Origin: a virus
Length of the DNA stretch: 29,081 nt
IMG/VR virus record: IMGVR_UViG_3300030012_003534
Location: 9,516-38,596 of that record
Strand: one strand, 5' to 3'
The notes below the pieces were generated by a model, which did no database searches, had not been told where the DNA came from, and saw only the letters and a program-made list of their open reading frames with translations. The position numbers and the translations under genes are program-made. Numbering within the stretch: the stretch's first letter is position 1; each line of letters begins with the position of its first letter. This document shows, piece by piece, positions 48-13,976 of the stretch.

Positions 48-3000
48 CTATCCAAATTTTATACTACCGAGTATTTGATTGATTGGTGCGAATGCTCCTG
101 TAAATTTATATACTTTACCTTTGTATTTAAATACTATACCTTCACTTGGTACTATTGCATCTAAACCACCAATCTTCTGTAGTTTTTCAATTTGTAGTTT
201 TAGTTTTTTTAATTTTTCTATTTTATCTGGTTTTTGTAAATCTTTCATTGCACTGATAATTTCTTTTCTCATTTTTTGAATAGTCTTATCAGGATTAACT
301 GCCATATATCCACTTATATTTTTAAGTATTTCTGCACCTACTTGGAAGAATAATACCTCAAATGGTTTTATATTTTGTTTAAATATTTTGTTATGGTCAA
401 ACTTATCTGTCTTTAATATCCAATCTAAAAACTTTTGATTTTTACCAAAGTCTTTTTTGATTTGTGGTATCTTATATGACTTATCAAAGTATGCCCATCT
501 CTTTACCAACTTGGCAAATTGTGCAGGTTTTAATTTTACTTTAAATTGTTTTGATGCATTATAAACATATTCTCTCCAATATGATTCATGATACATACCT
601 AAAGTATCTTTATCACTCAATGCATATTGTGATTGTAGTTTTTTTAATTTTCCTAAATACATATTTTTCTTCTTACCAAAATTTTGTACCTTTGGTACGG
701 TCAAGAAGTTTGGTTTACCAATCTTAAACATTTTTTGTATATGGTTGTTTGTTTGTTTAATCATACCTGCCAACATTCTCGCAGAATCTTTTGGTTGTCC
801 TATTGGTCTACCACTTTCATCATACTCTAATGTACCATGAAATACTATTTCTGCCACATCATAATCTACTACATTTGAAGTTGCTGGATACATAACCTCT
901 AAGTTCATCCATCGTTTTCCATTACCAAATATCTTCTCTTGTTGTTTATCTGATAATGAACCGATTGATTTTTCTAAATCTTTCATTGCACCTACAAAAG
1001 CCTTTTCTATATTTCCTCTACCACTAAACATAGATTTTATTCCACTTGTTGTTGGTGATGTTTTACCAAAATTCTTTAGGTGTCCTTTGTTACGAGCTGC
1101 TCTTAACTTACCATCAATCCAACTTACCATTAGATTTTGTCCATCAAGTTTCTCTGTAACACCATCTTCTCTATCTAACTTTCCTCCCAATCCATTAATA
1201 ACTATCATCTTCAAATCTGAAAAGGTCAAATTATTATCATCAAATGGATGAGACATATGTCCATATGCTCCACCCTCTATTAATAAGTTGACTTCTTTCA
1301 TAAATCCTTCTTGAATATCATCAATTGCATCACCCATAGATTCATCACCTGGTGCTAAGTCAAGTTCAACTGCTCTTTGTGTATTTTGGTCTTGTGTTTG
1401 AACACCTGGTAATGCAGGAGCTTCAACAGGTACACCTGTCACATCTCTTTCATTATCTGTCAATCCAAACCACTTTACCACTTCAAAGTCAAGTCCACTA
1501 ACTACCTTTTCTAACCATTTCTTATATGCCTTAACTGGGTCTTCACTTGGGAATCTTTCACCATATGGCCCTGCACCTCTTCTACCATATGCAACCGTAG
1601 GTACTTTATCCATTCTTGTAGTAAAATCTAATCCTGGGTCATTTGCATTTTTACCTAATATATAATGAACTAACTCCCAACCAATACCTTCATCTGAACT
1701 TGAGTACATTGACTCTATCCATTCTTTAGAATGTTTTTTGTAATCACTAAATCCATCATAAAATGTAGGTGGGCCATCGTCAATTGGAAATAAATTTGTA
1801 TTAGAACCCTCTTTTAATATTTCTGATAAGTCATTTCGTATCAAGAAACTATCAAACATCTCAAATAATTTCTTAAACTTATTAGTCATCATATTGTAAA
1901 CACCTTTATCATAATATCCAAAGGCTTGTTTAAATAATTTAGGTCTTTCTTCTTTCTTTACTTTTGGACTACCTAATAGATTTCTCATTACGGTTCCACT
2001 TACCTCTTGTCCACCCACTTTGATAGATTGGTGTGGTGCAGTAAGTATGTATCCATGTTGTTCATAACCCTCTAAATTCTTTTTGTTCTTTTTAAAATCT
2101 TGATAATAAGTTTTACCACCACTTTTCTTTTTACCACCAACTAATCTTCCTGCATCTTTTGCACCAAAGATATAAACAACTGCAGTTGTTTCTGGGTCAA
2201 ACTTTTTCAAAGCGTTGTTTGCAACATAAGGTGTTTTTTCTTTTACGATTTTATTTTTTGGAACACCCATTTTTGTCATATGACGAACTTTTTCTGAATA
2301 GTTCATTGGGTGTCTTGGTGGTTTTTTGATATCACTTGTAGTAATATAAACATCATCTACTTGTGACTTCAACCATTTATAAGTTTTAAAGTGATGAGGC
2401 CCAAATGGTTGGAATCTTCCACCATAAATACCAATCACTTTTTTAATTTTTTTATCTTGTTCATTCACTTTTTTATATCCACTACCATAAGGAACTGATG
2501 TGTTACCTTTTCGTTTCATCTTCTCAACACCTTTTCTACTTGGTGATGGAATGGTTCCTGCAGGTGCACCAAACTCTTCCTTTATATCTTTAACACCTGT
2601 TAATGTATATCCCAATACTTCTGCATTTTCTGTTCTTTCTTTTTCAAATTTTTTCTTATCACTCTTTGATAGTTCTCCACCGAATCCTTCATTAATGATA
2701 CCACCTCGTTGGTTATACCATTTTCTAAATTGTGCTGGTGAACCTATGGTAACCGTACCTTTTGCAATCTTTTCTACTTCCTTTTTTATACTATCATATT
2801 GACCCACTCTCGTCAATAAAAATACATCTTGAATATGAATTTGATTCACAACTATTTCATTCCACCCAAATTGTGAACCTTTATTTTTTTGACTTAATAT
2901 GTGTCGTTTGATTTGTGGTTTGTATTTTCTCAATACTTTATAACACATATCAATATATTTTTTAATCCATTTTCTTTTTAGTGGGCCCATTATTTTTTTC

Positions 3001-5153
3001 ATTGCAGCTTCTTTTTCTCTCCAATTGTAATCAGGATTTTTCTTTTCCCACTTATCTTCTTCTCTGTATTCTATCTTTCTCCAAGTATCTCTATCTATTT
3101 TTAGTTTTTTAATACCTGCATTTATCTGATTGTATATTTTATTACCTGCAACTTTACCTGCCAAAGTGTATGGTGGAACCCATCTACGACCTGTTTTATC
3201 TGGTGTTGATTGTATATCTCTTGTGCTTGCAACTAATAAAGTTCCTTCTATTTGATAAATAACACCACCTTTACTTTGTATCCCTTGTCCTTTTGCAAGT
3301 TTCTCACCTTTGTCTACTGCTGTAAATGTAGATAACGAACCTTTCTTACCAACGATTCTTCCAACTTGTTGTATATCTGATTTATATTCTCCTGCACCGA
3401 CATGAAATACACTTACTCGTGTATTACCTATCATCTTTTGCATAAATTTAGTAGATAGTGGAACATACTTACTATACCAACCACCGAATGTTTGTTCAAA
3501 AGATGATGTAGTGTGAACTGATTGAAACTTTGGTTCTGCTTCATTTATCACATTTTCACCCATATATAATTTCTTTTCCATGTCTTTTATCTTATCACCG
3601 ATTTGTTGACCTTTTAATCCTTTGAACTCTTCACCACCTGCCTTTACACTCAAGTTAAAGTTAACGAATTTCTTTAAATCTTTACCTATTAGTTTACCAT
3701 AAATAGTGATTTGGGATGGTGTTAATGTAGTTTTTTCTTGTGCCTTTTTAACATTATAGATATTTTGTGGTTTGAATTTATTCAAGTAAACCAAGAATGT
3801 TATATTCTTTGTCTCTTCTCCACTATATTTTAATTTATTTAGAATTTTTGGTAATTTACTTACATCATTGTTTCTAAAAATAGTTGCCAGGAATACGATA
3901 TAATCCTTGACATTTGGATAAGGTTTTTGTATATTTAGTTGTGGGAATACATCTGCAGTCATCTTAAACTTGTCTAACAATTCCATATACACTTTTTGAG
4001 ACTTTGCTTTCTTTAATGACTTCACCACTTCATCTCTAATTCTTTCAGAACTAATACCCTTCAAACTTGGATTCTTTAATAATGCCTTCTCAGTATCCTT
4101 ATCCATCTTACCACCAATAGTAACTTGGAATCTAAGTGCTCTAAGTTTTCTTAATGGGTCTTCATCAAATCTTTCTTTTGCTTTACCAACCGTTCTGATT
4201 ATCTTATCTTTTAAATCTTGTAGTCCACCTGTCAAATCTACAACCTCGTCCCTTCCTATATCAAAGAACAATGAGTTAATTGTTAAGTCTCTTCTCTTTA
4301 CATCACCTTGTATATCAGAGAAATCAACTGCTTTAGGTCTTCTACCTTTACCTATATCTTTTCTGAATGTTGCAATCTCATGTCCACCTACAACCACAAC
4401 ACCAAATTGTTTACCAACTTCATAGGTTTTCATTCCACCCTTTTTAGCAATCTTCAATACTTCATCTGGTTTTGCATCTGTCGCTAAGTCAAAGTCTTTA
4501 GGTCTTTTACCAAGAATGGCATCTCTTACTGCACCACCCACAACATATAATTGTTTACCATTCTTTTTGAATAATTTATAAATCTTTTTAATATCACTCG
4601 GAACATTCAATGTAATTTTATTCTCATTGATTTCTTTTTTCAATCTACTTTTTTCTCTACGACCTCTGTTTTTAGATTGGTCTTCATAACCTGCAATCTT
4701 ACCATTTTTATGTGATGCATCTTTTTTATCACCATTACCATAAGTACCCTTTTGTCTATTGTACTTATTTAGTTCGGCTCTGTATTTCTTTGCTTTTTTA
4801 GATGATTGAAATTTTTTGTATTCGTCTTTATAATCTCTTTTTGCCTTTTCTTCTAATTGGTCACTATCATCATTTTCAAACTTCTTCACACCTTTCATGT
4901 CACCATCAGGTGAAGTTGAATCTTTATCTGTAGTTTTCTGTGGTAGTAACTTTTTACCTTGTTTTTGTATTCTGAATTTAAGTGCAGGTCTACCATTGAT
5001 AAGTAAGTCACCTTTATCATTATAATCTATTGACTTTACTTTTACGCGTTTGTTTTTGAACCTACCCATTAAGATAGTATCACCTACCTCTACATCTAAA
5101 TCTATTCCTTCAAGAAGTGGTTTTACGAGCCATTCTGTAAGTGTCTTACTCAT
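48..5153 (-). CDS. Multi-domain nucleotidyltransferase polyprotein, probably packaged in the head
   Basis: 1701 residues. The first 15 resemble a T4-type capsid-targeting peptide ending in LLE before Gly16. Next come a small beta-rich segment (about 18-62), a Lys-rich linker (63-185) and a poly(A)-polymerase/CCA-adding nucleotidyltransferase head and neck: VVGGAVRD near 204, DFDL 220-223, RRDLTINSL 287-295, DPLRKLRALRF 332-342. Residues about 545-800 hold FHVG (583-586) and LSTFT (607-611), a possible ADP-ribosyltransferase-like fold (weak). Residues 905-1060 are a cytidylyltransferase/NMN-adenylyltransferase-type domain (GIYGGRFQPFGPHH 908-921, SGTVMR 1052-1057). Residues 1116-1282 are unrecognised. 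Residues 1294-1701 are ligase-type: EKLDG with Lys1335, NLEVMYP 1417-1423, EGIVFKYKG 1671-1679. L/I-x-E sites followed by G or A end at Glu15, 538, 822, 1115, 1282 and 1293, each between modules. Cleavage by a T4 gp21-like prohead protease and packaging are inferred. A role in tRNA repair or NAD metabolism is possible but unproven. Confidence 0.85.
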   Translation of the reverse strand: MSKTLTEWLVKPLLEGIDLDVEVGDTILMGRFKNKRVKVKSIDYNDKGDLLINGRPALKFRIQKQGKKLLPQKTTDKDSTSPDGDMKGVKKFENDDSDQLEEKAKRDYKDEYKKFQSSKKAKKYRAELNKYNRQKGTYGNGDKKDASHKNGKIAGYEDQSKNRGRREKSRLKKEINENKITLNVPSDIKKIYKLFKKNGKQLYVVGGAVRDAILGKRPKDFDLATDAKPDEVLKIAKKGGMKTYEVGKQFGVVVVGGHEIATFRKDIGKGRRPKAVDFSDIQGDVKRRDLTINSLFFDIGRDEVVDLTGGLQDLKDKIIRTVGKAKERFDEDPLRKLRALRFQVTIGGKMDKDTEKALLKNPSLKGISSERIRDEVVKSLKKAKSQKVYMELLDKFKMTADVFPQLNIQKPYPNVKDYIVFLATIFRNNDVSKLPKILNKLKYSGEETKNITFLVYLNKFKPQNIYNVKKAQEKTTLTPSQITIYGKLIGKDLKKFVNFNLSVKAGGEEFKGLKGQQIGDKIKDMEKKLYMGENVINEAEPKFQSVHTTSSFEQTFGGWYSKYVPLSTKFMQKMIGNTRVSVFHVGAGEYKSDIQQVGRIVGKKGSLSTFTAVDKGEKLAKGQGIQSKGGVIYQIEGTLLVASTRDIQSTPDKTGRRWVPPYTLAGKVAGNKIYNQINAGIKKLKIDRDTWRKIEYREEDKWEKKNPDYNWREKEAAMKKIMGPLKRKWIKKYIDMCYKVLRKYKPQIKRHILSQKNKGSQFGWNEIVVNQIHIQDVFLLTRVGQYDSIKKEVEKIAKGTVTIGSPAQFRKWYNQRGGIINEGFGGELSKSDKKKFEKERTENAEVLGYTLTGVKDIKEEFGAPAGTIPSPSRKGVEKMKRKGNTSVPYGSGYKKVNEQDKKIKKVIGIYGGRFQPFGPHHFKTYKWLKSQVDDVYITTSDIKKPPRHPMNYSEKVRHMTKMGVPKNKIVKEKTPYVANNALKKFDPETTAVVYIFGAKDAGRLVGGKKKSGGKTYYQDFKKNKKNLEGYEQHGYILTAPHQSIKVGGQEVSGTVMRNLLGSPKVKKEERPKLFKQAFGYYDKGVYNMMTNKFKKLFEMFDSFLIRNDLSEILKEGSNTNLFPIDDGPPTFYDGFSDYKKHSKEWIESMYSSSDEGIGWELVHYILGKNANDPGLDFTTRMDKVPTVAYGRRGAGPYGERFPSEDPVKAYKKWLEKVVSGLDFEVVKWFGLTDNERDVTGVPVEAPALPGVQTQDQNTQRAVELDLAPGDESMGDAIDDIQEGFMKEVNLLIEGGAYGHMSHPFDDNNLTFSDLKMIVINGLGGKLDREDGVTEKLDGQNLMVSWIDGKLRAARNKGHLKNFGKTSPTTSGIKSMFSGRGNIEKAFVGAMKDLEKSIGSLSDKQQEKIFGNGKRWMNLEVMYPATSNVVDYDVAEIVFHGTLEYDESGRPIGQPKDSARMLAGMIKQTNNHIQKMFKIGKPNFLTVPKVQNFGKKKNMYLGKLKKLQSQYALSDKDTLGMYHESYWREYVYNASKQFKVKLKPAQFAKLVKRWAYFDKSYKIPQIKKDFGKNQKFLDWILKTDKFDHNKIFKQNIKPFEVLFFQVGAEILKNISGYMAVNPDKTIQKMRKEIISAMKDLQKPDKIEKLKKLKLQIEKLQKIGGLDAIVPSEGIVFKYKGKVYKFTGAFAPINQILGSIKFG

Positions 5154-5159
5154 GGTCTC

Positions 5160-5531
5160 TTACCACTTACGACATGACCAATAACGAGCTTTATGTCTTG
5201 GGCCTGGATTATCACAATTGTGTCTTGCTCTGAATGACTTACGAGCCTGTGGATTAGATTTTCTAATTTTCATTGTTCCACCCTTTGCCTTTCCACCTTG
5301 ACCGAAGTTGACTTTAACTACATTTCCTTTTGGATTTTTAACATATACTTTGAACTTCTTTGCATCACCTTGCATAATTTTACCAAGTTTAACTTTACGA
5401 CCTTGATATTCTGCTTCGTTTAAATCATTAACAAATTCAAAGGTATATCCATATGGTTTACCTTCTGATTCATAATAGATGTTTGTTGTAGTTAATTTAC
5501 CATTAGATTCTGATTCATAAAATATATCCAT
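5160..5531 (-). CDS. Small virion-associated protein with a Cys/His/Trp-rich C-terminus
   Basis: 123 residues from the ATG at 5531, which lies 2 bases after the stop of the preceding gene and has a GGAG upstream. An open extension to 5585 would overlap that gene by 51 bases and is not favoured. Residues 1-39 are acidic and end in LNE before Ala40, matching the T4 prohead protease consensus. The remainder (40-123) is basic: a VYVKNPKGNVVKVNFG strand-turn-strand segment (62-77), then a tail with RHNCDNPGPRHKARYWSCRKW spacing, in which two Cys and two His could bind a metal. I recognise this C-terminal pattern from marine T4-like phage structural proteins, but it has no assigned function. The N-terminal part looks like a propeptide and the conserved part begins exactly at the predicted cut. 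Confidence 0.75.
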   Translation of the reverse strand: MDIFYESESNGKLTTTNIYYESEGKPYGYTFEFVNDLNEAEYQGRKVKLGKIMQGDAKKFKVYVKNPKGNVVKVNFGQGGKAKGGTMKIRKSNPQARKSFRARHNCDNPGPRHKARYWSCRKW

Positions 5532-5533
5532 AA

Positions 5534-5869
5534 CTATCCTTTTCTCCAACCACCACCAGCGGCTTTGTATTGTTTTGCTGCCCATGCGTTTGCATATGCA
5601 CTTGGATAAACATCAAACTTTTTCTTGGCCTGTGATTTATAATAAGACCACTTACTTGGGTTTGTTGGAACATTCTTCTCAACAAACAAGTTTAATTTAT
5701 CTTCTGCAATGACTTCTTGGACTGCCTGTTTAACGAATTTACTTAACTTCATTATAGTCTCCTTTTGGTCTTTACCCTTTTTAAACCTATGTTCTCCATC
5801 AGGATTGTTCTGTGGAACATTCCCAACATTTCTTAAATAATTTGGTGGATTCAACATCTCACTTTTCAT
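5534..5869 (-). CDS. Small basic phage protein, two possible starts
   Basis: 111 residues if it begins at the ATG at 5869, which overlaps the preceding stop as ATGA. A second in-frame ATG at 5752 has a much better ribosome binding site (AAGGAG, 6 bases upstream) and would give 72 residues starting MKLSKFVKQAVQEVIAE, typical of a short amphipathic capsid-targeting peptide ending in the protease-like site IAE before Asp. The 39-residue upstream segment is Asn/Pro/Gly-rich and looks coding rather than random. The C-terminal 45 residues (WSYYKSQAKKKFDVYPSAYANAWA, then an AAGGGW end) match a short domain common in marine phage structural regions, function unknown. Both forms may be made. Confidence 0.65.
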   Translation of the reverse strand: MKSEMLNPPNYLRNVGNVPQNNPDGEHRFKKGKDQKETIMKLSKFVKQAVQEVIAEDKLNLFVEKNVPTNPSKWSYYKSQAKKKFDVYPSAYANAWAAKQYKAAGGGWRKG

Positions 5870-6546
5870 GAACTTTTACCTGTTCCACTCTTCCTACCTT
5901 TGGTGTGTGTAGAAACATTAATTGGTTTCTTACCTTGTGAACCTGCACCTGCTTTTCCTCTTCCACCTCTACCTTTTTTATTCTGTGCTGCTCTCTTTCT
6001 ACGAGTTGCACTTTCCTTTTCTTTCTTACTCATAGATGCGGCCTTACTTGCAGGAACACATTTTGCATATCCTCTTTTCTCACCACTTGTTCCACAAGGT
6101 GGATGTTTACCATCTTTACCTTTCTTACCGATGTTAACCCATTTCTTTTTAAACCAATTTCTTAAGTCTTCATTAACTGGATTACCACATTCAATACAAA
6201 GATTACCTTTGATGGTTTCAATTACTTGTTGTGTTCGTTCATTAACTTTATTCTCAATATACATATCTTTAACATCTTTCCAATTAATATCTCCTAACAA
6301 GTGTTCTGGTTTGTGTCTCATCATACCTCTGACTTTACCTGGTTTGAAGTCTCTACTATGTGGAACAACATCAATTCCTCTATCATCTACCTGATTAGCG
6401 TGGAAACGATTGTATCCATCTTTTTTTGATTTTGTAATCACTACAAAACCATCACCTCTTGTTACCAAGTTATCTAATTTTTTAGAGATTTTCTTATCCA
6501 TCTTACCACCCTTTACTTTAGATAGTAATTGTTTTAAACTTTTCAT
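5866..6546 (-). CDS. Basic phage protein of the DUF5872-like type
   Basis: 226 residues. The N-terminal 115 residues are mixed and Lys-rich, without a recognised fold. Cys117 and Cys120 (CIEC) with Cys151 and Cys163 could form a small zinc site. The segment LRNWFKKKWVNIGKKG to about residue 192, with CGTSGEKRGYAKCVP in the middle, resembles the domain I know as DUF5872 in marine phages and large viruses (from memory; moderate certainty). The last 35 residues are a disordered Gly/Lys/Ser tail, suggesting nucleic-acid contact. The start overlaps the ferredoxin stop by ATGA and the end overlaps the next ATG the same way, so translation is coupled. A virion or head-interior role is inferred from the neighbours. 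Confidence 0.75.
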   Translation of the reverse strand: MKSLKQLLSKVKGGKMDKKISKKLDNLVTRGDGFVVITKSKKDGYNRFHANQVDDRGIDVVPHSRDFKPGKVRGMMRHKPEHLLGDINWKDVKDMYIENKVNERTQQVIETIKGNLCIECGNPVNEDLRNWFKKKWVNIGKKGKDGKHPPCGTSGEKRGYAKCVPASKAASMSKKEKESATRRKRAAQNKKGRGGRGKAGAGSQGKKPINVSTHTKGRKSGTGKSS

Positions 6547-6827
6547 TGAAAAAACTCCTTATTAATCTCAATATATTTTGTCCACTCTTCTGGTAGTTCA
6601 TCTTCATCATAAATAGCTTCTACAGGACACTCAGGTTCACATGCACCACAATCAATACATTCATCTGGGTCAATGTATAATTGTAATCCATCTATTGATT
6701 CTAATCCCTCTACCTCTGCACCTGCACCTGTTTTCTCTATTGGCCCATGGATACAATCCACAGGACAAACTGATACACATGCCGTATCACAAGTACTTAC
6801 ACAAGGTTCTGCTATTACAAATGCCAT
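6543..6827 (-). CDS. Bacterial-type 7Fe/8Fe ferredoxin
   Basis: 94 residues, an electron carrier with two iron-sulphur clusters. Cysteines are at 9, 13, 17, 21, 25 and at 57, 60, 63, 67. The second group is the classic CxxCxxCxxxCP (DECIDCGACEPECP). The first group (CVSTCDTACVSVCPVDC) aligns with Azotobacter ferredoxin I, where the equivalents of Cys9, 17 and 67 hold a 3Fe-4S cluster and those of 21, 57, 60 and 63 a 4Fe-4S cluster. An insertion (about 28-50) lies between the two groups. The C-terminal DELPEEWTKYIEINKEFF is also typical of the family. The ribosome binding site is weak. Ferredoxins known in cyanophages are plant-type 2Fe-2S proteins, so this type among late genes is unusual. 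The redox partner is unknown; the radical SAM enzymes in the window are candidates. Confidence 0.93.
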   Translation of the reverse strand: MAFVIAEPCVSTCDTACVSVCPVDCIHGPIEKTGAGAEVEGLESIDGLQLYIDPDECIDCGACEPECPVEAIYDEDELPEEWTKYIEINKEFFQ

Positions 6828-7606: not shown

Positions 7607-8473
7607 TTATTTTCTCCTATTAAGTAATTTTTGTTTTTTAACCCACATTTTTCCGATTTTGTTTTTGACGGGTTTTGCCACAAACTTTCTAATAACTTTA
7701 GTAACCAATGGAACAAACTTTGCCTCCGCTTCTTTATCATTCATATGTTTTGAATTATCCACAATTACAAAATTATTTTTAAATAATGCTTGGAATGAAC
7801 CAAGATTTTTCTGTACATCTTTCCAACTCTTTTCTAATAATTTTGGTGGTAATATTCTATCTCTTAACTGATTTCTATGTTGTGCTACCTCTAAAGAAGT
7901 ATTCACCATCACCATATAAGTATCATATCCATCATCTTCTAACATTTTTTTCATACTTTGTATCTTACCAAAGTCATGACCTGTACCATCAATAATCATT
8001 CCTAACTTACCTTCTTGATATAATTTCATTCTTTGTTTAGTAAGTTGTTTTGAGTATCCTCTTAATCCACTATAATCCTCATAATCTGGGTCTGTTAATT
8101 GTCTAAATAATTCATCTGGCATTTTGTCTAAATCTGTTCCAAACCCATATTTGTTTAGTAAAAACTTTAATTCTTTATCAGAGTTTACCATTTTCATACC
8201 ACTCATACTGATATTAAATCTTTCAGGTATACCAAATATCCACCTTGCTACTCTTGTTTTACCACTACCTGGCCCACCTGCTAAGAAGACTGCCTTAAAT
8301 ATTCCCTTATCTTTTACACCTTCTGCAAGAATCATCTTTAATTTTTGGACTAAATCTTTCTTATAGGCATCATAATCTTCAGGTTTAACAAACCCTTTAT
8401 ACCCACCAAGTGATTCAGAGTTCGCACTCTTACCTGTTTGGGATGATTCTAATAAGTCTTTTAATTTAATCAT
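7607..8473 (-). CDS. P-loop kinase (zeta-toxin or polynucleotide-kinase type), probably head-packaged
   Basis: 288 residues. The Walker A motif GGPGSGKT (66-73) follows a hydrophobic strand, with VNSD (96-99), IIDGTG (160-165) and arginines 200 and 204 of a possible lid. This order is that of zeta-toxin-like and polynucleotide-kinase-like ATP-dependent phosphotransferases; the sequence alone does not say whether the substrate is a nucleic acid, a nucleotide sugar or a protein. The first nine residues MIKLKDLLE, followed by Ser, resemble T4 capsid-targeting peptides cut after L-x-E; a second ILAE site precedes Gly52, just before the P-loop domain. The C-terminus is Lys/Arg-rich. GGAG lies about 7 bases before the ATG, and a T4-late-like TATAAATA is 83 bases upstream. 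Confidence 0.85.
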   Translation of the reverse strand: MIKLKDLLESSQTGKSANSESLGGYKGFVKPEDYDAYKKDLVQKLKMILAEGVKDKGIFKAVFLAGGPGSGKTRVARWIFGIPERFNISMSGMKMVNSDKELKFLLNKYGFGTDLDKMPDELFRQLTDPDYEDYSGLRGYSKQLTKQRMKLYQEGKLGMIIDGTGHDFGKIQSMKKMLEDDGYDTYMVMVNTSLEVAQHRNQLRDRILPPKLLEKSWKDVQKNLGSFQALFKNNFVIVDNSKHMNDKEAEAKFVPLVTKVIRKFVAKPVKNKIGKMWVKKQKLLNRRK

Positions 8474-8508: not shown

Positions 8509-10431
8509 TTAAGTTATGGAAGTTTCGTATCTTCTGTTTCGTCTTCCCCACCACATATTTATAGTACACCATTTTTTTACATCAGAGTCCCAATTTTCTG
8601 AATTGAATTCGTATGTGTGGCCACCATTTTTGATAGGTTTATTATCGTAAATAACCTCTTTGATATTAAAATTAAATGGTACTTTTTTAGGATATTTTTC
8701 AAATGGACTTGTAGATATACTACTTTGAAATAAAATTAAGTCATCAACTAATGTTACATCTACATTTTTAAACTCACTTGTAATAAAACTTCTAAGATTT
8801 TTATCAAATTCTTCACGATTTGTTACAATTTTGATAGCAGTTGCCTCTTCATAATCCCAAAAATAATTACCTGTTATCTCTTCTACTTTTCTACCCCAAA
8901 GAGTTTCTTTCTTTAAAACTTTAGTTAGAGTATTTTTAGTAGTAGACATTTCTTTTCCTAAGAAAGTATCAGGATGATTTTTCATCCAATTATAAAACTT
9001 AGTATAAAATTCTTTGTAAGATATATCGTGTGTTGAACTTAACACTCTTGAAATGTGTTGAGTGAACCCTAAGAAGTGTGCAAACATAAACATCCATCTC
9101 CAAATAGAGGCCTCTACATATTCTTCTCTATTCATTGTGTCACTACCAACTACCATGAATTCCTTTTCGTCTTTTAACATTTCAGGATAATCGTGGTGGA
9201 AGAATGCAGGTGTTGTTTCAACAATATCAATACCATATTCCTTGACATAACTTGGTTCAAAGAATGGTGTGTTAGGTAATGCAGTCATTGGATATACTCC
9301 AACATAATCATGAAATTCCATGTCCATTATTTGAAATATACCATCTTTAAATGTATCAATAGTTTCTTTTGGTAATCCCAAAATTAATTCTACATAACTG
9401 ATGAGTTTTTTATCTTTATACAAATTGAAAAATTCTTGTAATTTTCCATTATCAACATTTTTTCTTCTCACTGCCTTCAATACATCAGGATTCATAGATT
9501 GTAGTGCAATAGTAATTCCTTTCATCATACCTGCCTCTGTAAGTAAGTATGCATACTCAACAACTTTATCTGCCTTTGCCTTTGCCCAATCAACTCTGAT
9601 GTTGTCAGGATATCCTGTTTTCTCTTTTAGTTTGGTCATATACTTTACTTGGTCAAGGTGTTCCTTAAATAAACCATAATTAGAATCTGCATTATAGAAA
9701 AATTCTACTTTGTTTTTAGATAACCAATCTAATTCTTGAAATATTTTTTCATTAGTTTGTTTTGCAATCTTCTGAAAGTATTTGTCACCAATCTCACAAA
9801 ATGTACATTGATAAGGACACCCACGAACACTTTCTATCGTACCTTCAAATGCATACTCATGGTCTTTGACTTTTACTAAATCATCAAACAATCCATCCAA
9901 ATAAGGACTTGGCATTGAGTCAATGTCTTTTAATCTTTCTCTTGGTGGTGTTGTAATTAGTTTACCTAATGGTGGATTAATAGTGATACCATTTACTTTT
10001 GTCCAATCTTTATCTATAAGATATCGTAACAATATGTCTTCAAATGTTAACTCACCTTCACCATGAACTAATATATCAATACCAGGATTGTCATCACAGA
10101 ATTGTTGACATCTATCTCCTTTAGGTGTTCCTTGTCCACCAAAAACAACTATACATTGTGGATTAATTTTTTTTATTTTTCTTATAATAGAAGTATTTTG
10201 TACTGAATTCCATACAAAATTAGAAACTCCAATAATATCAGAATCTTTTATTTGTTCAATTATTTTATCCTCATCTTGTCTATAGTACATCCAATCTTCC
10301 ATTTCTAATGAAAAATTTTCTTTGATAGTTGGATTTAAGCGACAATATCCCCATATCAAACCAGTAGAGTATGGTAACTTTACTTGGTTTGCTGTAATGT
10401 CTGATAATTCAAGGAAACTTATTTTGTACAT
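8509..10431 (-). CDS. B12-binding radical SAM enzyme (class B type)
   Basis: 640 residues. Residues 1-150 look like a cobalamin-binding Rossmann domain (DIIGVSNFVW 65-74, VVFGGQGTPKG 95-105, DILVHGEGE 119-127). The radical SAM core follows, with RGCPYQCTFC placing the cluster cysteines at 205, 209 and 212; YNADSNYG (246-253), IALQSMNPDVL (308-318) and ELILGLPKET (348-357) are usual core positions. About 240 residues beyond the core are unassigned. B12-dependent radical SAM proteins often methylate unactivated carbons or rearrange rings; in this cluster a sugar or glycan carbon is a reasonable but unproven target. The start overlaps the previous gene by 13 bases. The last gene of the glycan cluster, it is separated by 35 bases from the virion block. 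Confidence 0.9.
   Translation of the reverse strand: MYKISFLELSDITANQVKLPYSTGLIWGYCRLNPTIKENFSLEMEDWMYYRQDEDKIIEQIKDSDIIGVSNFVWNSVQNTSIIRKIKKINPQCIVVFGGQGTPKGDRCQQFCDDNPGIDILVHGEGELTFEDILLRYLIDKDWTKVNGITINPPLGKLITTPPRERLKDIDSMPSPYLDGLFDDLVKVKDHEYAFEGTIESVRGCPYQCTFCEIGDKYFQKIAKQTNEKIFQELDWLSKNKVEFFYNADSNYGLFKEHLDQVKYMTKLKEKTGYPDNIRVDWAKAKADKVVEYAYLLTEAGMMKGITIALQSMNPDVLKAVRRKNVDNGKLQEFFNLYKDKKLISYVELILGLPKETIDTFKDGIFQIMDMEFHDYVGVYPMTALPNTPFFEPSYVKEYGIDIVETTPAFFHHDYPEMLKDEKEFMVVGSDTMNREEYVEASIWRWMFMFAHFLGFTQHISRVLSSTHDISYKEFYTKFYNWMKNHPDTFLGKEMSTTKNTLTKVLKKETLWGRKVEEITGNYFWDYEEATAIKIVTNREEFDKNLRSFITSEFKNVDVTLVDDLILFQSSISTSPFEKYPKKVPFNFNIKEVIYDNKPIKNGGHTYEFNSENWDSDVKKWCTINMWWGRRNRRYETSIT
8556..8563 (-). 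promoter_or_regulatory. Possible T4-type late promoter
   Basis: The minus strand reads TATAAATA, the T4 late -10 consensus, inside the 3' end of the radical SAM gene and 83 bases upstream of the kinase start. The kinase is the first gene of the virion-associated block, so a late promoter here makes sense. Against it, the octamer also encodes Ile-Asn within TINMW and AT-rich DNA gives chance matches. Confidence 0.35.
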
Positions 10432-11822
10432 ACTTCTTCTATCTCGTCAAATAATTTTTTAAATTGTTCATTTCTCTCACTACCCAATTTCATAAAATGA
10501 TTGTAATTGTGAACTAATATATCTTTCATATCCGAATACCACTTTACCATTTCATCCTTTGGAATATCTTGTAATCTCTTTACTTCATCAAGAATCATGT
10601 TGTATCTTTTTTTATTATCTACTACTTTATCATAAGACTCATCTATAAATGGATGAAAAGTCTTAAAACCAAGATTTCTTAATTCTGTCATTGTGTTAGG
10701 TCTACCAAAAGTGATAAATGGATGGAAATTACCCACACATTTCCAAGTCTTTTCGGTTATATAATCACTTCTTCTAAAAAAATTAGATTCTGTAACTATA
10801 CTATAATAAGTATTTAACCATGGTTTTTTCATATCACCTCTGAATCCATGTATGTTTGATAAGTCTTCATGGTCAATCATTCTCTTTTTAAGTCTAACTG
10901 CCTTTTTAATATATCGTTCAAATTCTTTTCTATATGTTTCTTCATCATCATATATAATTTTATATTCTTCCATATAAGTGTCTGTTCTGTTAGGGAATTT
11001 AAAATCACCATCTAAGTTAAATTGAAAACTAACTAAGTTATCATCTAATATACCCATTTTAACTAACTCACCAATTAACATAACACGATGTGGATGCATT
11101 CTTCTATTAAAACATAAAAACTTGTGGTCTCTTTCCTTACCTAAACTATTTTGAAACTCCTTCAAAGAAACAGAACCAAGTTTACCCTTGAGTTCTTCAG
11201 ATTCAAAGTTTTCTATTCCCATATTATATTCATGTCCCTTTTCGTACAAAAAGTAGTGATAGTTCATAACATTAAATCTGTCTGTAGTTTGCATATTCTT
11301 TTGGTGCCAAGTGTGATGTTGTCTTTTTATACCATGGTTACCACTTGTTAATATAATTATCTTTTTCATTGGTAAATCATTTGATTCACAAATCTGTGCC
11401 AATCTTTCAAAAAATGAATCAACTACTAAACCCTCATGTACCATTGTTATTAAAATATAACCATTTGATTGTTTTAACTTTGTCATTGTTGCAGGTGGTA
11501 TGGCATGTGAAAAATTCCACCCATCATAAAAAGAATTGGGTTTTTGATTAATACCAAATGATTTTTGAAAGTCACCAAAAATTTCAACAGGATATACCCA
11601 AGTATCATTTGGTGTGACATCCTTTATATTGACTATTTGGTCTTCATAATAATTTCTAAAACTTGAATTATAAACATGCCATGGTTCACCAAAATGTTCT
11701 CTTACTGAACTTTCTGAAACATCGTAGTTACCACTAAAGTTTTGTAATACAAACTTTACAATGTCAGGATGACATGCATTAGGTGTTAAAAATGGTCTTT
11801 CCCTATCAAATACTATTTTCAT
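10419..11822 (-). CDS. Putative glycosyltransferase-like protein, paralogue 1 of 5
   Basis: 467 residues. It shares two landmarks with four other proteins here: an FNRRMHPHR segment (238-246) and a C-terminal block with TEKTWK (356-361), a HPFITFG strand (367-373), LGFKTF and DESYD (394-398), followed by an Arg/Lys-rich helix. The TEKT block, preceded by the acidic TES (344-346), resembles the donor-binding end of GT-B glycosyltransferases such as GT10 fucosyltransferases or exostosin-like enzymes; this is a fold-level resemblance only. The N-terminal 220 residues differ from the paralogues and may bind the acceptor. No membrane segment is visible, so it should act in the cytoplasm. The start overlaps the upstream gene by ATGA. 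A non-enzymatic role is not excluded. Confidence 0.75.
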   Translation of the reverse strand: MKIVFDRERPFLTPNACHPDIVKFVLQNFSGNYDVSESSVREHFGEPWHVYNSSFRNYYEDQIVNIKDVTPNDTWVYPVEIFGDFQKSFGINQKPNSFYDGWNFSHAIPPATMTKLKQSNGYILITMVHEGLVVDSFFERLAQICESNDLPMKKIIILTSGNHGIKRQHHTWHQKNMQTTDRFNVMNYHYFLYEKGHEYNMGIENFESEELKGKLGSVSLKEFQNSLGKERDHKFLCFNRRMHPHRVMLIGELVKMGILDDNLVSFQFNLDGDFKFPNRTDTYMEEYKIIYDDEETYRKEFERYIKKAVRLKKRMIDHEDLSNIHGFRGDMKKPWLNTYYSIVTESNFFRRSDYITEKTWKCVGNFHPFITFGRPNTMTELRNLGFKTFHPFIDESYDKVVDNKKRYNMILDEVKRLQDIPKDEMVKWYSDMKDILVHNYNHFMKLGSERNEQFKKLFDEIEEVCTK

Positions 11823-12646: not shown

Positions 12647-13976
12647 TATAGTAATCTCCATACTCTACTAATATAGTTGAACCATCTCTACTATAAGCCT
12701 TTGTAAACTCATTGAATATGTTTTCTGTTTTATTAAGTTCAACTATTTTGACTTCAGTTAACATCTCTTTTAGTTGTTTGATATAATTCTGAGTGTGTTG
12801 TACTCCACCATTTAGTGGTTCACGAGAACCAACTGCAGTTCGTATTATAACTTTTGGTTTCATTTGACCATTACTCATATTTTGAATCTTATCTAAATGG
12901 TTTACTAAACTATCCATACATCTAAGTAAGAAGTCCATTCTTGGAAAACAACTAATTGGAACATGTCCATTTAGTGCCATCCCAACACTCATACCCATTT
13001 GTATTTCTTCAAATACAGGTAACTCTAATCTTTTATCGTCATCAATATCTTGTAATGTTCCATAAATAGAATTACCACTATACTTAACTGATTGTCCCAT
13101 AAAAATAGTATTGTCTTTTTTACTCAACCATTCCATAGAACGATTTAATTCATCTTTATACTTCATAATAATTGGTTCTCCATTATCATCTTCTACTATT
13201 TGAAATTTCATAGCCATATCATGAAATCCAAATGCAGTTTGTTTTCTGTGTGAAAGAATTGGTTTTGTATGATTACCTAAAGAAAACTCACTTGATAAAC
13301 TTGGTGATGCAAACTTTAAATCATACTTTTTTAATTCTTCGTAGTTCTCATGTATTAACAAATCTTCATTTTGTTTAAATACCATACCACTTGTTTCATC
13401 AAATCTATAAATGATTCCATTTTTACTTTTTGTTTTAGTAAAATAATCAGAAGTAGATTCACAAAACTTTTTTGACCTCAATGTTAATCCACCATTGAAA
13501 TGTCCAACATCTTCTATAAATTCAGAATTATCATCTTGACACCCATCAGATATCGTATATAATAAATCGTAATCAAGAAACTCATCTTTCCACTTATCAA
13601 TGTTGGTTATGAAACAATCCCATTGAATCAATAATACATGTTTTGCTTCAAAGTATTTATGTAGATACTTCAATATAAATTCACCATAGTCATGGTAATC
13701 CATTGTACCTGTTAAGTGTATCCAATTGTGGTCTTCACATGGATGTGGTGGTTTAATTGGTGAAACAATAGCAAAACTTCTAAAAGGTAGTTTGTCTTCA
13801 AATTCTTTTAACACTTCAACACTTTTTTCAAGTCGTGGTATTGAAACTGAGTCACCACACCCATCAATCAATCTAACATCAATATCATATTTATAATCTT
13901 TATTTTTATAAACATGATTTATATCAGGATTATAATTGTCTTGCCAATAATATCCTTGTGTAAGGTCTTTACTCAT
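12636..13976 (-). CDS. Fusion: DUF5672-like domain plus TPP-dependent E1-beta pyrimidine domain
   Basis: 446 residues in two parts. Residues about 45-250 resemble DUF5672, a putative glycosyltransferase domain: VLLIQWDCFI (114-123), EFLDYDLLYT (132-141), VGHFNGGLTLRS (157-168). Residues about 272-446 match the pyrimidine-binding half of E1-beta (pyruvate/acetoin dehydrogenase) subunits: FMGQSV (292-297), ELPVFEEIQMGMSVGMALNG (318-337) with the cofactor-activating Glu at 323 or 324, PRMDFLLRCMD (345-355), RTAVGSREPLNGGVQHTQ (379-396). The usual C-terminal transketolase domain of about 120 residues is missing; the protein stops soon after VKIVELN. The matching diphosphate-binding half is the gene at 22989. 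The two may form a TPP enzyme making or transferring a keto unit for a branched sugar (inference). The start overlaps the dioxygenase gene by 8 bases. Confidence 0.85.
   Translation of the reverse strand: MSKDLTQGYYWQDNYNPDINHVYKNKDYKYDIDVRLIDGCGDSVSIPRLEKSVEVLKEFEDKLPFRSFAIVSPIKPPHPCEDHNWIHLTGTMDYHDYGEFILKYLHKYFEAKHVLLIQWDCFITNIDKWKDEFLDYDLLYTISDGCQDDNSEFIEDVGHFNGGLTLRSKKFCESTSDYFTKTKSKNGIIYRFDETSGMVFKQNEDLLIHENYEELKKYDLKFASPSLSSEFSLGNHTKPILSHRKQTAFGFHDMAMKFQIVEDDNGEPIIMKYKDELNRSMEWLSKKDNTIFMGQSVKYSGNSIYGTLQDIDDDKRLELPVFEEIQMGMSVGMALNGHVPISCFPRMDFLLRCMDSLVNHLDKIQNMSNGQMKPKVIIRTAVGSREPLNGGVQHTQNYIKQLKEMLTEVKIVELNKTENIFNEFTKAYSRDGSTILVEYGDYYNDR

Follow-up and report, generated by a model that had tools for sequence, protein, structure and literature searches.

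Prohead-protease-type sites punctuate a predicted head-cargo polyprotein of a marine T4-like phage

Can a tailed phage make several enzymes as one precursor and free them with its capsid protease? Polyproteins processed by a protease of the virus are a typical feature of RNA viruses, and the question is raised here by a gene of a marine T4-like phage, which lies in a window (the whole stretch of DNA analysed, 29,081 nucleotides) that forms part of a 53,209-base virus contig. A sequence-only reading of the window had described a frame of 1701 residues in which sites of the T4 gp21 type separate enzyme modules, and had proposed a packaged cargo polyprotein whose enzymes are released at head maturation. 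The frame was borne out, on the minus strand, which had gone unstated (Table 1). The proposal itself gained support from conserved sites, a protease in the same gene block and genes consisting of a leader plus one module; on these grounds it is quite probable that the gene encodes a head-packaged cargo polyprotein, which the prohead protease, acting in trans, divides into separate enzymes.

Table 1. Predicted modules of the polyprotein and neighbouring candidate cargo genes in the window (a slash marks a predicted cut point)
Feature	Position	Strand	Basis
Polyprotein gene, 1701 aa, single ORF	48..5153	minus	361 relatives in IMG/VR
Residues 1-15, MSKTLTEWLVKPLLE, capsid-targeting-like leader ending LLE/G	5109..5153	minus	site and relatives
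Residues 16-92, small N-terminal module GDTILMGRFKNKK	4878..5108	minus	kept in most complete relatives
Residues 93-177, basic module (phrog_6437), ending INE/N	4623..4877	minus	profile match and stand-alone gene in L080
Residues 178-538, CCA-adding/poly(A)-polymerase-type nucleotidyltransferase, ending INE/A (3540-3548)	3540..4622	minus	
Residues 539-822, ART-like module of uncertain fold, ending INE/G (2688-2696)	2688..3539	minus	
Residues 823-898, linker module, ending VNE/Q, the insertion point in relatives	2460..2687	minus	
Residues 899-1115, NMN adenylyltransferase/cytidylyltransferase-like module plus tail, ending LKE/G (1809-1817)	1809..2459	minus	
Residues 1116-1293, module D, with sites IQE/G (1308-1316) and LIE/G (1275-1283)	1275..1808	minus	
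Residues 1294-1701, ligase-type covalent nucleotidyltransferase (EKLDGQN ... SEGIVFKYKGKVYKFTG)	51..1274	minus	
Small protein with FVNDLNE/AEYQGRKVKLGK; candidate cargo by motif only	5160..5585	minus	inspection
Small protein with MKLSKFVKQAVQEVIAE/D	5534..5869	minus	
DUF5872-like basic protein (match below cut-off) with GNPVNE/DLRNWFKKKW; candidate cargo by motif only	5866..6546	minus	
Stand-alone P-loop kinase/zeta-toxin-like gene (MIKLKDLLES...LKMILAE/GVKDKGIFKAVFLAGG)	7607..8473	minus	

The motif [LI]xE[GA] was found after residues 15 (LLE/G), 538 (INE/A), 822 (INE/G), 1115 (LKE/G), 1282 (IQE/G) and 1293 (LIE/G), all six exactly where they had been claimed. Composition-preserving shuffles of the polyprotein sequence gave an expectation of 1.7 such sites, and six or more occurred in 0.8% of shuffles (p ~0.008). 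The tripeptide [LI]xE occurred 12 times in the chain (7, 15, 102, 177, 538, 822, 859, 1098, 1111, 1115, 1282 and 1293). One module boundary had been overlooked, that at residue 898 (VNE/Q), where relatives add extra modules.

The domain labels given to the intervening modules held unevenly. Both the CCA-type and the NMNAT-like label stood, since their matches exceeded the Pfam cut-offs: a CCA/poly(A)-polymerase head domain with its RNA-binding part was identified at residues 202–406 (head domain PF01743, 103 bits against a cut-off of 23, E = 1.5e-29), and a HIGH-type cytidylyl/NMN-adenylyltransferase-like domain at residues 909–994 (PF01467, 24.9–27.9 bits against a cut-off of 21, E = 2.6e-5). 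The NMNAT-like module is assigned to the HIGH nucleotidyltransferase family, with NMN as a putative substrate only. The ligase-type label was upheld through its motif residues, E41 K42 D44 G45, L125 E126, E378 G379 and K390 being invariant in 24 aligned sequences, but the module scored only 15.3 bits against PF09414 (RNA_ligase), under the cut-off of 27. This module, the last 408 aa of the chain, contains the stretches EKLDGQN, LEVMYP, SEGIVFKY and VYKFTG, and ligase motifs I (KxDG), III, IV and V, as assigned by inspection, are conserved. The label ART found no fold support. The model of that module (pLDDT 74) had no match below E 0.001 in PDB or BFVD by Foldseek, and VIA-align listed 50 entries with Z no higher than 5.3, most of them matching through long helices; the sole ART-superfamily entry (7yw4, a tRNA 2'-phosphotransferase) stood at Z 3.8 among unrelated rows, and was rejected as too weak. 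Module D could not be read structurally, its model (pLDDT 55) being uninterpretable. Sequence searches of PDB with the ligase, NMNAT, kinase and ART-like modules produced no meaningful match, and Pfam identified no peptidase domain in the window polyprotein.

The claim that sites lie between domains was confirmed, as none of the 12 [LI]xE tripeptides fell inside the four enzyme domains. With domain boundaries drawn by hand from Pfam matches and homology breaks, the domains (1213 aa) contained 0 tripeptides where 7.8 were expected, and the linkers 11 against 4.5; other genes in the window did not avoid the motif (96 observed, 72 expected). Family-wide, [LI]xE was scarcer than expected in the ligase module (26 vs 70), the ART-like module (4 vs 13), the CCA module (9 vs 17) and the NMNAT module (17 vs 25), the p-values for these depletions, as for the breakpoints below, being nominal, as the sequences counted are related. 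Internal depletion was not observed in the kinase module (40 vs 35 expected), in stand-alone CCA enzymes of other phages (23 vs 25.7) or in ligase homologues of two megaphages (16 vs 11.4). The direction of the depletion is the one expected if a protein meets a protease of L/I-x-E specificity.

A scan of IMG/VR recovered 361 relatives of the polyprotein, from which 80 loci were taken for comparison. Among hundreds of marine relatives, enzymes had been exchanged, gained, lost or encoded alone, with cut points at L/I/V-x-E; the chains usually conserved their C-terminal part and a few dozen residues at the start, and everything between was exchanged. Half of the homology breakpoints taken as HSP starts lay within 8 aa of [ILV]xE (50% vs 18% for random positions), as did 37% of HSP ends (vs 18%). 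An alternative marker, [NQ]xQ, gave a marginally higher ratio (3.2 vs 3.0), but accounted for 11% of breakpoints against 42% for [ILV]xE, and was rejected.

Conservation of the junctions was assessed with the first conserved residues of every module as anchors, the sites not being chosen beforehand. Position -1 was Glu in all 26 kinase contexts, in 26 of 27 contexts of the basic module and in 85% of ligase contexts, while position -3 was mostly I, L or V. The check proposed with the original reading, whether sites are kept in homologues where linkers vary, came out in its favour: the site was present in 26/26 distinct kinase contexts, 22/27 for the basic module, 30/36 for module D and, in an enlarged set, 79/109 for the ligase. 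The ART-like module had [ILV]xE just upstream in 17/17 contexts and an INE end in 26/27, despite differing neighbours on both sides. At the junctions P3 and P1 were fixed, and P2 and the flanks variable, in chains down to 41% identity; the chain of Microcystis phage Mel-JY01, for example, retained IIAE/GG at 41% identity though module D is missing. An origin of the junction motif as DNA-level recombination scars was set aside, since P2 and P1' vary around a fixed P3 and P1.

Two sites behaved differently from the rest. Residue 1282 failed as a general cut point, its site being conserved in near relatives only. Site 1293 was maintained in part: the 79 ligase contexts with [ILV]xE speak for it, but in 29 of the 109 the sequence was LLLM/GG, with Glu replaced by Met, and therefore the cut at 1293, at least, is dispensable or replaced. 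Chains with LLLM/GGAYGH in place of LIE/GG included L074, L143, L146 and L148-L152, among others; here translation might begin internally at the Met, or a cut might have been lost, and another [ILVM]xE lay nearby in only about half of these chains. Several complete relatives had at most one or two strict [LI]xE[GA] sites, and showed the pattern only once V was admitted at P3 and D, S, N, E or M at P1'. In L069, a module similar to a core gene of the window phage itself (C1:1935-3005) was inserted exactly at site 1293, and both scaffold-like and head-gene modules were present within polyproteins of relatives.

The strongest single evidence for a cargo polyprotein, in so far as sequences can suggest one, came from separate genes for the same modules, which consist of a short leader plus the module with an identical junction. 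The ART-like module is encoded alone in L106 and L117 (MIKLKDLLNE/AEPKFQSVHT...GGIINE-stop), where the protein ends exactly at the INE-stop. Comparable leaders were seen in L049 (MIKLMDLIHE/GIQDKGIFKA), before the basic module in L080 (MMIKLKELLNE/KAERDYKDEYKK) and before a ligase relative in the megaphage L129 (MKFLKSYEEFLNENLILE/GGSYGHLNHPF). The beginning of the polyprotein's own leader is shared by most complete relatives, as in MNKLTEWLTKPFLEE before the cut. The window's kinase gene is a module of the polyprotein in 20 relatives, and homology begins at [LIV]-x-E in both settings. Parts of the small protein at 5534..5869 were fused beside the ART-like module or elsewhere in the polyproteins of L015, L004, L049 and L056.

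A protease of the required type is encoded nearby. A Peptidase_S77 (T4 gp21-type) gene lies about 7.6 kb past the 3' end of the polyprotein gene on the same contig (C1:1309-1935; PF03420, E = 4.3e-28; PHROG head maturation protease, E = 8.5e-52). The genes 3' of the polyprotein on the same strand are three small genes, the large terminase, the portal, three core-like genes and this protease, so that polyprotein, TerL, portal and protease form one block on one strand. A protease of the T4 gp21 family was present in the records of 14 of 16 relatives as well. The nearest terminases were those of Mel-JY01 (54%) and Flavobacterium phage immuto (53%); cultured immuto has the same order of multi-domain gene, TerL, portal, protease and MCP, and Mel-JY01 the same order from an NMNAT-ligase gene via TerL to the protease. 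The analogous multi-domain protein of immuto (immuto_182, QQO92338.1; L090 115-2838) has nucleotidyltransferase-like and NMNAT-like domains and two HExxH-type stretches, with L/I/V-x-E/G between its domains. An MCP gene was absent from the window's contig. The gp23-type MCPs of relatives carry LIDE/[AS]S or similar near residue 64, a T4-like position; T4 gp23 loses a propeptide of 65 residues (PMC9026906).

These observations suggest the following course of events. The N-terminal leader would take the entire chain into the prohead core, where, at head maturation, the gp21 homologue would cut after L/I-x-E in the linkers. The pieces freed would be the basic module, the CCA-type nucleotidyltransferase, the ART-like protein, the NMNAT-like enzyme with module D, and the ligase-type nucleotidyltransferase. 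Having no internal sites, the folded enzymes would survive the protease, remain in the head with the DNA and enter the host along with it. The sites, their placement between modules and avoidance within domains, their conservation, the traffic of modules, the protease in the same block and the leader-plus-module genes were computed directly; packaging, cleavage, injection and function are inferred from them.

Three other explanations were weighed against release by cutting. The internal sites might be fossils of fused cargo genes, only the leader being cut and an uncut multi-enzyme chain packaged. The existence of the modules as stand-alone leader-plus-module genes would suit such a history, as would the loss of site 1293 in about a quarter of contexts, and polyvalent proteins such as the N4 virion RNAP are packaged uncut (PMC5512222). 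Yet lingering sites do not account for P3 and P1 staying fixed, with P2 and flanks variable, down to 41% identity, and an uncut chain would have no need to avoid [LI]xE within its domains; this history is thus considered improbable. The same avoidance bears on the idea that the chain is prohead core material, chopped and cleared like T4 gp22 and gp67, its domains being relics or active only before maturation. Gp21 does cut the T4 core proteins into many fragments (PMC9026906), and one relative's polyprotein contains a shared scaffold-like module, but in a core protein that is chopped up sites would be expected throughout, rather than domains without them, and the catalytic motif residues are kept; core material is a very unlikely identity for this protein.

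Equally little probability attaches to an ordinary cytoplasmic multi-enzyme protein that never enters the head, whose motif and location would be due to chance or shared history. Packaging is here a prediction from sequence, and CCA, NMNAT and ligase genes are familiar as ordinary phage genes (PMC9503650). Against this stand the position in the head-gene block, the stand-alone leader genes, the co-occurrence with the protease and the avoidance of sites. A cargo polyprotein cut in the head remains the preferred reading.

The closest known systems are the internal proteins and Alt of T4, and the polyvalent proteins. In T4, gp21 cuts after L/I-X-E and leaders of 10 residues target cargo; the capsid-targeting sequences, of 10–19 residues (7 for Alt), are sufficient for head loading and are cut by gp21 (PMC9026906). 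In T4 IPIII, exchange of the P1 Glu for Asp prevents processing but leaves targeting intact (PMC9026906). T4 IPI-III and Alt share with the present system a gp21-family protease, L/I-x-E specificity and a short leader ending in the site; cargo enzymes are delivered with DNA in T4, and delivery is inferred here. However, T4 cargo is made singly and terminal propeptides are removed, whereas here several enzymes are seemingly freed from one precursor. Polyvalent proteins similarly combine many disparate enzyme domains per chain, lie near head genes and are predicted to be packaged and injected, but their processing is ascribed to peptidase domains within the chain (zincin-like, and C-terminal assemblin-like), which are common in part of the class and not obligatory (PMC5512222). 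The present chain differs in its predicted trans cuts by a separate prohead protease, and in modules of CCA, NMNAT and ligase type. In the giant phages SPN3US and phiKZ, a protease related to gp21 acts on many head and ejection proteins, cutting behind a short motif whose last residue is Glu, but N-terminal propeptides are removed at 13 of the 14 sites mapped in SPN3US, the other being the protease's own C-terminus, and multi-enzyme release is unreported (PMC10052503). DarB of phage P1, an anti-restriction protein of very large size, is packaged in the head and has a targeting signal at its N-terminus, although multi-site release is not described in the text consulted (PMC9024508). No described phage head polyprotein of such arrangement was found in the open-access papers searched.

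As to what the enzymes do, no tRNA genes were found in 16 stretches of phage DNA examined, and therefore a CCA enzyme serving the phage's own tRNAs is unsupported there. A survey of viral NAD+ systems treats phage RNA ligases, nucleotidyltransferases, KptA-type ARTs and NAD+ salvage as counter-defence (PMC9503650). Speculatively, the CCA-type enzyme and the ligase, together with an enzyme of NAD-making type and the P-loop kinase encoded nearby or fused, would most likely serve to repair tRNA/RNA and NAD+ early, in defiance of host defences. It is a tentative further suggestion that the locus is a platform for exchangeable cargo, in which marine T4-like phages shuffle cassettes bounded by L/I-x-E within a single precursor. 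Once freed, the CCA-type enzyme, ligase, kinase, NMNAT-like enzyme and possibly a 2'-phosphotransferase-like ART would then be injected as a kit for RNA and NAD+ repair that works ahead of all phage gene expression. If several enzymes are indeed freed from one precursor by the capsid protease of a tailed phage, this would be a new mode of cargo loading and delivery, and L/I-x-E punctuation would provide a reading rule by which unknown head-block proteins of these abundant ocean phages could be divided into cargo modules from sequence.

Several minor features were recorded besides. A contig of a Flavobacteriales MAG (L142, NZWA01000031.1) carries a ligase module 99% identical to that of the window, which is a weak hint of the host. 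Between the head/cargo genes and the lysis gene lies a small 4Fe-4S ferredoxin-like protein (6543-6827, minus strand; phrog_8732). At 8509-29081 on the minus strand, about 20 consecutive genes, named by eye, resemble a cell-surface sugar pathway, very large for a phage; these include NAD-dependent epimerases and radical SAM, glycosyltransferase-like, carbamoyltransferase-like, methyltransferase-like and sulfotransferase-like proteins, and a PhyH-type dioxygenase. In L083, two proteins (10035-11519 and 12738-13784) end in stretches that are Hint/intein-like by eye (CFLPGSKVSTPNGDKNIEDLDIGDEV...VNGILVHN and CLLIGTSITL...YMTHN), and three neighbouring glycosyltransferase-like proteins (758-5507) have an apparent LamG-type domain in mid-protein, also judged by eye.
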